IMG/VR virus record: IMGVR_UViG_3300045738_000575 | Location: 1-27,930 of that record | Origin: a virus | Reading direction: 5' to 3' (one strand) | DNA: 27,930 bases | Part shown: positions 1,522 to 2,053 of the stretch, in pieces | Layout: each line of letters opens with the position of its first letter | Numbering within the stretch: the stretch's first letter is position 1 | Program-made: the position numbers and the translations under genes | The notes under the pieces: generated by a model | What the model was told of the DNA's origin: nothing | Databases searched by the model: none | The model's input: the letters and a program-made list of their open reading frames with translations, nothing else

Positions 1522-1710
1522 GTGCTAACATTTTAGCCACAAAAAACCCGTAGAGGGGGCATTTAAGCCTCCCTATTTCTTCAATGGGCATATCCGCCCC
1601 TGACCCTCTAACGGCCCACAGACACGCTTCTATGGTGCAAAATGGGCTATCTATCCAAGATAGAAGAGTCCATTGAAATCAATTGCCCAAAATAATTAAA
1701 ATATTAGCAC
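1522..1710. ncRNA. Candidate structured RNA (or DNA structure) in the convergent gap
   Basis: The segment is closed by GTGCTAACATTTT (1522-1534) pairing with AAAATATTAGCAC (1698-1710): 12 of 13 pairs, extendable by A1535-T1697 and a G1536-T1696 wobble. Inside lie: a helix of 1548-1557 with 1604-1614 (CCGTAGAGGG with CCCTCTAACGG, 10 pairs and one bulged A); a possible GGGC/GCCC hairpin at 1586-1599; TTCAATGG (1580-1587) with CCATTGAA (1670-1677) as a competing long-range helix; and CTTCTAT (1627-1633) with ATAGAAG (1660-1666), competing with TCTATC/GATAGA at 1650-1664. No reading frame of useful length crosses it. The leftward genes have T-tract terminators before reaching it, so a rightward transcript is slightly favoured, as are two G-T wobbles that pair only in plus-strand RNA. 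No known RNA family is recognised; a DNA-level role such as an origin or packaging site is possible. Confidence 0.5.
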
Positions 1711-1726
1711 CTTGTAATAAAGACCC

Positions 1727-1832
1727 AAAAAAAATCAAAAAAAAATTTACAAGGCCACCGAATCAAAGGTTGTTTTATTAGACCATAGAGAGAAACACTC
1801 TCTACATTCCCATAATTTCAACCGATTCGGTG
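1727..1832 (-). terminator. Hairpin plus double T-tract terminator of the leftward genes
   Basis: CACCGAATC (1756-1764) pairs with GATTCGGTG (1824-1832), and after an AAA bulge GGTTG (1768-1772) pairs with CAACC (1819-1823), making a 14-pair stem. Its loop carries another perfect hairpin, AGAGAG/CTCTCT (1787-1803). Read leftward the stem is followed after 10 bases by nine T (1745-1737), GA, and eight T (1734-1727). T-tracts on the non-template strand are the established archaeal termination signal, so this is very likely the end of the long leftward transcript. Confidence 0.7.
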
Positions 1833-1840
1833 AACCGACA

Positions 1841-1864
1841 TAAAAACCTAACAGGCGTTTAGGT
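1841..1864 (-). terminator. First hairpin-T5 terminator of the leftward genes
   Basis: Read leftward, ACCTAA (1864-1859) pairs with TTAGGT (1851-1846) around a 7-base loop, and the stem runs directly into TTTTTA (1845-1840 region). It lies 34 bases after the stop at 1898 and before the larger terminator at 1727-1832, giving tandem termination signals. Confidence 0.55.
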
Positions 1865-1897
1865 ATAGTTAATTGTTTACAGAAGGGACAACCCTGT

Positions 1898-2053
1898 TTA
1901 AGAGCCATCTCTTCTTCGCTCCTCATTAATTAGTCTGTCCATATATTCCTCAATAGAACTATATGGGGAATTGTTTGAGCCGAATGCGGCAAAAAACAAT
2001 AAACTAATAACGAGGATAAATATAAACCATATCATTACTTCTAAAGTTTGCAT
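1898..2053 (-). CDS. Small single-pass membrane protein
   Basis: This encodes 51 residues: MQTLEVM, then a hydrophobic stretch of about 18 residues (roughly 7-24, rich in Ile, Leu, Phe), then a polar, charged tail with EEYMDRLINEERRRDGS. It is the last gene of the leftward train. Its ATG overlaps the stop of the exonuclease gene by one base (TAATG, at 2051-2055), the same coupling used elsewhere in the train, and two terminators follow. A type II or III single-span protein with the basic and acidic tail on one side of the membrane is likely. Function is unknown; by position it could be a viral membrane or egress factor, but nothing in the sequence proves this. Confidence 0.65.
   Translation of the reverse strand: MQTLEVMIWFIFILVISLLFFAAFGSNNSPYSSIEEYMDRLINEERRRDGS

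Follow-up and report, generated by a model that had tools for sequence, protein, structure and literature searches.

A non-coding segment between convergent magrovirus operons: a promoter with a rapidly evolving, untranslated transcript is likelier than a novel structured RNA machine

What occupies the short non-coding segment where two convergent gene sets of a tailed virus meet: a new structured RNA, or a promoter with an untranslated transcript? The question arises in the window, by which we mean the whole stretch of viral DNA analysed here (27,930 nucleotides, a 27.9-kb IMG/VR virus record), in which a preliminary description had picked out the 189 bases at 1522-1710 as a candidate structured RNA closed by a 13-base inverted repeat. 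The leftward genes of the window include a split family B DNA polymerase, a clamp-loader-like ATPase, an ATP-dependent ligase, exonucleases and a ribonucleotide reductase, and one of the rightward genes at the left end matches tail fibre assembly proteins. Magroviruses, the tailed viruses of Poseidoniales, transcribe their replication and virion modules in opposite directions (PMC10768690). Because its gene content and the relatives of its exonuclease (80 kept, from viral contigs) match, we assign the window to the magroviruses; judged by its genes, it is a fragment of a tailed virus of marine archaea of the Poseidoniales.

The segment does lie between convergent gene sets, with the late/tail module on the plus strand and the replication module on the minus strand meeting here. 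On the left, the border is formed by a rightward 99-aa gene of the late/tail module, whose stop is at 1465, and on the right by a leftward 59-aa zinc-finger gene of the replication module, whose stop is at 1747.

1466-1746, no strand assigned: intergenic region, from the list of open reading frames, with tail proteins on the plus strand and replication proteins on the minus strand.

Within this region the inverted repeat is real, its arms pairing at 13 of 14 positions with one mismatch, and it is the top-scoring repeat present (score 12.5, matched by 2 of 150 dinucleotide shuffles).

1522-1535, plus strand: 5' arm of the inverted repeat, GTGCTAACATTTTA.
1697-1710, plus strand: 3' arm of the inverted repeat, TAAAATATTAGCAC; among the genomes compared, this one alone has a closing repeat that clearly exceeds chance.
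1640-1672, plus strand: local hairpin AATGGGCTATCTATC..GATAGAAGAGTCCATT, where, together with 1548-1614, the predicted fold is at its most stable.

An origin of the arms as transposon ends was considered and dropped, as no flanking duplication is present. When both strands were folded against shuffled controls, the check that had been proposed for this element, the 189 bases proved more stable than the shuffles on plus and minus alike. As plus-strand RNA the stretch reaches -56.4 kcal/mol (z -5.2, with 0 of 200 shuffles as low), as minus-strand RNA -66.4 kcal/mol (z -3.6), and folded as DNA it has a z of -3.7. Shuffles preserving local composition in 45-base blocks gave z -5.7 on the plus strand, none of 80 being as good, and removal of the arms (1535-1697) left z -3.3 on plus and only -1.25 on minus. 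In a fold scan of the whole window the stretch is among the lower z-scores, with others comparable, and is thus not unique. As to the inner helices, the one proposed between 1548-1557 and 1604-1614 is present in the minimum-energy fold; for 1627-1633 and 1660-1666 the complementarity exists, but in that fold a more favourable hairpin, at about 1640-1672, takes the place of the helix. The case also shows that a strong folding score of a single sequence is no evidence for a conserved RNA.

Much of the segment is taken up by a stretch of unusual composition, with 52% GC against a window mean of 33%.

1545-1660, no strand assigned: GC-rich non-coding island, the most GC-rich 116 bases of the window.

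Junction relatives were gathered by queries with the flanking proteins, and about 11 magrovirus lineages have a GC-rich (45-57%), non-coding, fast-evolving island at the same junction. These islands are alignable only within one lineage, and alignment across lineages gave no detectable similarity. Searching related loci by blastn with the element returned no homologue of the window's own island, and a distant search of phage records yielded only weak A-rich matches and no homologue. Three DNA-pattern scans for further members recovered loci of known lineages, the remainder being mostly apparent coding sequences of other viruses. The window's island holds no long open reading frame in any frame, and no consistent or conserved one is shared by the relatives' islands; no tRNA or tmRNA was found, and the Rfam 15 covariance models gave no match at gathering score in the window and none at E<=1 in nine related loci. 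A host origin was also rejected, because comparison of the islands of the window and of locus L158 with 194-293 Thermoplasmatota genomes produced matches of 17-34 bases, which is the chance level. As a separate observation, the short words AGGGCAT and CTCAGAA each recur in the islands of 6 of 12 lineage groups, above shuffled islands (seen among L151, L207, L155, L141, L152, L041, L158 and L204).

Five lineages with two or more distinct islands allowed pair conservation to be measured, by comparing how many minimum-energy pairs are still pairable in a relative with the rate for all column pairs pairable in the first sequence. Predicted island pairs survive at the background rate in these lineages (1053 of 1472 kept, 1097 expected). 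The same test has power, since the hairpin of the zinc-finger gene keeps 6121 of 7691 pairs against 5869 expected, with 287 double compensations, although these comparisons are not independent of one another. In L152 and L158, which are 70-78% identical, each fold is broken in the other sequence, at 14 of 43 or 18 of 49 pairs and with few compensations. RNAalifold energies set against column-shuffled alignments gave z-scores of -2.6, +0.2, -1.8, -1.8 and -2.0 in the five lineages, so that, at best, folding the alignments gives a slight gain over the shuffled ones. The islands' own mean folding z is -1.1 on plus and -1.2 on minus, without strand preference, and the fold of the window's 189 bases is stronger than these (z -5.2 and -3.6 versus a mean of about -1.1). 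Of the 11 other members examined for the closing repeat, none has more than a weak one and some lack it; in L041 and L158 it is marginal (p 0.05). Because the pairs are unconserved, the alignment folds weak, the closing repeat clearly above chance in the window only and the strands equivalent, a structured-RNA reading is not supported for the region as a class. The covariation check suggested for the element was run on the related islands, as the window's island has no alignable relative, and the broken pairs found there count against a structured RNA. Likewise, the idea of a selected RNA closed by the repeat is not supported: across five groups of relatives with an island at this place, predicted pairs survive no more often than column pairs taken at random.

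An RNA specific to this lineage would be a narrower proposal: a structured non-coding RNA, or a late mRNA with a structured 3' end, in which the fold and its 13-base closing helix serve a function in this lineage, for example in protecting that 3' end or in binding a protein. This would account for the plus-strand z of -5.2, for the failure of all 80 block shuffles to match the fold and for the rarity of the repeat among shuffles; in addition, the island is GC-rich within an AT-rich genome, and no terminator is seen from the stop of the late gene to the island, so that a read-through mRNA would carry both arms. However, the same proposal has to contend with pairs that are not conserved in the region's relatives, weak alignment folds, a closing helix that elsewhere is absent or weak, the lack of an Rfam match and two relatives, 70-78% identical, that break one another's predicted helices. 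We regard it as unlikely. The fold of the 189 bases is true but lineage-specific, within a conserved regulatory junction.

The conserved RNA structure at the junction is, as read from the aligned sequences, another one, namely the hairpin of the zinc-finger gene end.

1722-1741, minus strand: T-run of two T8-T9 tracts, the likely end of the leftward replication operon.
1747-1926, minus strand: 59-aa CxxC..CxxC zinc-finger protein, the last gene of the leftward operon.
1750-1839, minus strand: hairpin that overlaps the zinc-finger gene's 3' codons and lies beyond the 189-base element; relatives conserve it and show compensatory changes.

In a fold scan of the relatives' junctions, the strongest consistent signal came from this gene end and not from the island. 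The fold of 1720-1830 has a z of -5.5, and most of the 81 distinct sequences compared have a similar hairpin (their mean z is -3.7, and 77% score below -2), its position relative to the stop codon shifting between lineages. In one set of ten sequences, pairing in the outer helix reaches 89%, and 4 of its 12 pairs have both sides changed. Hairpin and T-run together most probably form the 3' terminus of the replication operon, which agrees with the earlier impression that the leftward operon terminates before the segment. It may be added that the hairpin overlaps variable C-terminal codons or straddles the stop (for example in the window, L014, L025, L035, L044, L118, L198 and L218), and that RNA pairing at this gene end may constrain the protein's C-terminus.

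To the left of the island, two further elements stand next to each other.

1498-1510, no strand assigned: TATA/BRE-like motif GAGGGTATTTAAA, at the same junction in related loci, with about one non-coding match per magrovirus record.
1522-1540, no strand assigned: dyad GTGCTAACATTTTAGCCAC, equivalent to the relatives' GGNCTAAAAARTTAGNCC in an alignment of 12 sequences.

The motif consists of GAGGG-TATTTAAA, a TATA-like 8-mer with BRE-like bases upstream, as expected of an archaeal TATA/BRE sequence, and it is kept in relatives; we interpret it as an archaeal TATA box whose G-rich flanks resemble a BRE, and as a predicted promoter. It is found at the junction in the window, L151, L152, L158, L041/L043, L161, L162 and L167, while L203, L204 and L207 have a less strict version of it. 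Written as GAGNRTATWTRAA, it occurs 0-2 times per record in twelve magrovirus records of 11-98 kb, and the two matches away from the junction both lie within coding sequence. In the window the motif is near-palindromic with the sequence downstream (GAGGGT..ACCCTC), and for this reason it may serve as a promoter both ways; a single symmetric TATA box of P. furiosus gives two starts 49 bp apart (PMC6640164). If archaeal spacing applies, with transcription starting about 22-27 bases downstream, starts are predicted at about 1532 on the plus strand and about 1483 on the minus strand. The separate rightward transcript that had been raised as a possibility would in this way have a promoter-like motif of its own, and since the predicted start falls inside the 5' arm, most of that arm would lie outside the transcript. 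Which way the motif points depends on the comparison. In the orientation as written, it stands upstream of start codons in L062, L154/L251 and L263-L269, and by analogy with L062, L154 and L263 would point toward the island; the SRP RNA promoters of a Thermoplasmatota group also resemble it, with a better fit to the reverse complement (TTCAAATAC, TTCATATA) than to the forward sequence, and by that similarity it would point away.

The dyad follows the motif (GAGRGTATWTRAA) at a distance of about 13-14 bases (9 in L162), and in the window it contains both the predicted rightward start and the 5' arm of the inverted repeat. In the 12 aligned sequences, 82% of its cells are paired and 3 of 7 pairs are changed on both sides, moderately above shuffles. 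L071 and L025 retain motif and dyad and have lost the island, and in L155-L159 and L141-L147 the motif is on the right, that is the opposite, side of the island; with these losses and swaps, promoter/dyad and island behave as separable pieces. Two side observations concern the same ground. In L161 and L162 a small open frame with CxxC-type pairs (Zn-ribbon-like) lies between the 99-aa gene and the motif. L002, L163, L164, L212, L218 and L228 are without the TATA-like motif and have another dyad near the junction, of the type GGTGTARAAAATACACC, which often stands shortly upstream of a small gene's start and could be a shared operator.

The reading that we prefer, with a probability of about 0.45, is a promoter at the junction, perhaps working in both directions and with its start overlain by a dyad, that transcribes a short non-coding RNA of unconstrained structure. 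The segment would then be the control region where the late and replication operons of the magrovirus meet. The promoter at 1498-1510 would fire rightward, and possibly leftward too given its near-palindromic form; the start, placed by archaeal TATA-to-start spacing, would fall near 1532 within the dyad, which would serve either as an operator or in the form of a 5' hairpin; and the transcript would be an untranslated RNA, short and rich in GC, running through 1545-1700 toward the convergent replication operon, with dampening or separating convergent transcription as its simplest effect. The analysis shows the position, the motif, the dyad, the GC-rich island, the absence of open reading frames and the absence of conserved structure in the relatives tested, whereas transcription, its start, the role of the dyad and any effect of the RNA belong to the proposal. 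For the reading speak the near-unique motif at the junction, its orientation upstream of start codons in other loci, the dyad with some covariation, the survival of motif and dyad in loci that lack the island, the GC-rich islands free of conserved open reading frames and the two starts given by the symmetric TATA box of P. furiosus. Several findings stand against it: the motif's reverse complement is closer to SRP RNA promoters, so that transcription may run left, away from the island; this genome has no clear T-run terminator after the island on the plus strand; the motif is on the island's other side in the two groups of loci named above; and a mere untranslated transcript leaves the window's stronger-than-relatives fold unexplained. 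Since the motif and the small dyad are conserved and the fold is not, a promoter whose untranslated transcript changes quickly is a likelier identity for the segment than a novel structured RNA machine.

It is improbable, in our view, that the junction houses a gene devoted to one small non-coding RNA and driven by a promoter of its own, belonging to a class outside Rfam, GC-rich and evolving beyond recognition of sequence or structure between lineages, as in an arms race with a host factor. Equally doubtful is a passive buffer between the convergent operons, made of GC-rich DNA that drifts fast and readily forms hairpins, in which transcription arriving from either side would be slowed or ended. 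Such a buffer would fit the position between convergent modules, the strong hairpin and T-run on the replication side and the similar folding potential of the islands on both strands, but it leaves the conserved, near-unique TATA-like motif and the dyad unexplained, and no T-run is present on the plus strand beyond the island. A DNA element, with the repeat acting as DNA in a replication origin or terminus or a packaging site, is very improbable, for although the GC skew changes sign here and the inverted repeat and the DNA fold (z -3.7) would suit it, the skew follows gene strand and convergence alone yields such a change, its maximum (not minimum) at the junction is terminus-like rather than origin-like and confounded with gene strand, the repeat is not conserved, and no terminase match was found among the adjacent proteins searched; the origin and packaging roles once suggested thus gain no support.

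The packaging RNA of phi29 is a phage-encoded, structured, non-coding RNA in the size class of about 170-190 nt. The junction segment is like it in size class, in being non-coding and in being viral, and differs in having neither an Rfam match nor a conserved fold. A related magrovirus also carries ordinary large and small terminases (its ICTV profile), which sets it apart from the phi29-type case. Closer parallels are the archaeal BRE/TATA promoters, including symmetric ones, with which the motif shares the TATTTAAA/TTTAAATA core, the G-rich BRE-like flanks and the near-palindrome, and from which an expected start about 24 bases away (PMC6640164) is applied here by analogy. Unlike such promoters in general, GAGRG beside TATA is nearly junction-specific within magrovirus genomes, and the promoter here is a predicted one. 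In the halovirus HF2, intergenic repeats carry promoters, and long counter-transcripts from both strands have been reported (PMC8707807). HF2 is likened to our case by features and not by sequence, since in both an archaeal virus has promoter-like sequences between its genes, at positions that are conserved in the genome; in contrast to its several repeat copies, we find one copy per genome with an attached GC-rich island. The literature searched describes no non-coding RNA or promoter for magroviruses. These viruses of marine archaea are abundant and lack a cultured system, and a conserved, near-unique predicted promoter motif beside an untranslated GC-rich island at their module junction offers a concrete, testable regulatory site, one that shows metatranscriptome surveys where to look.
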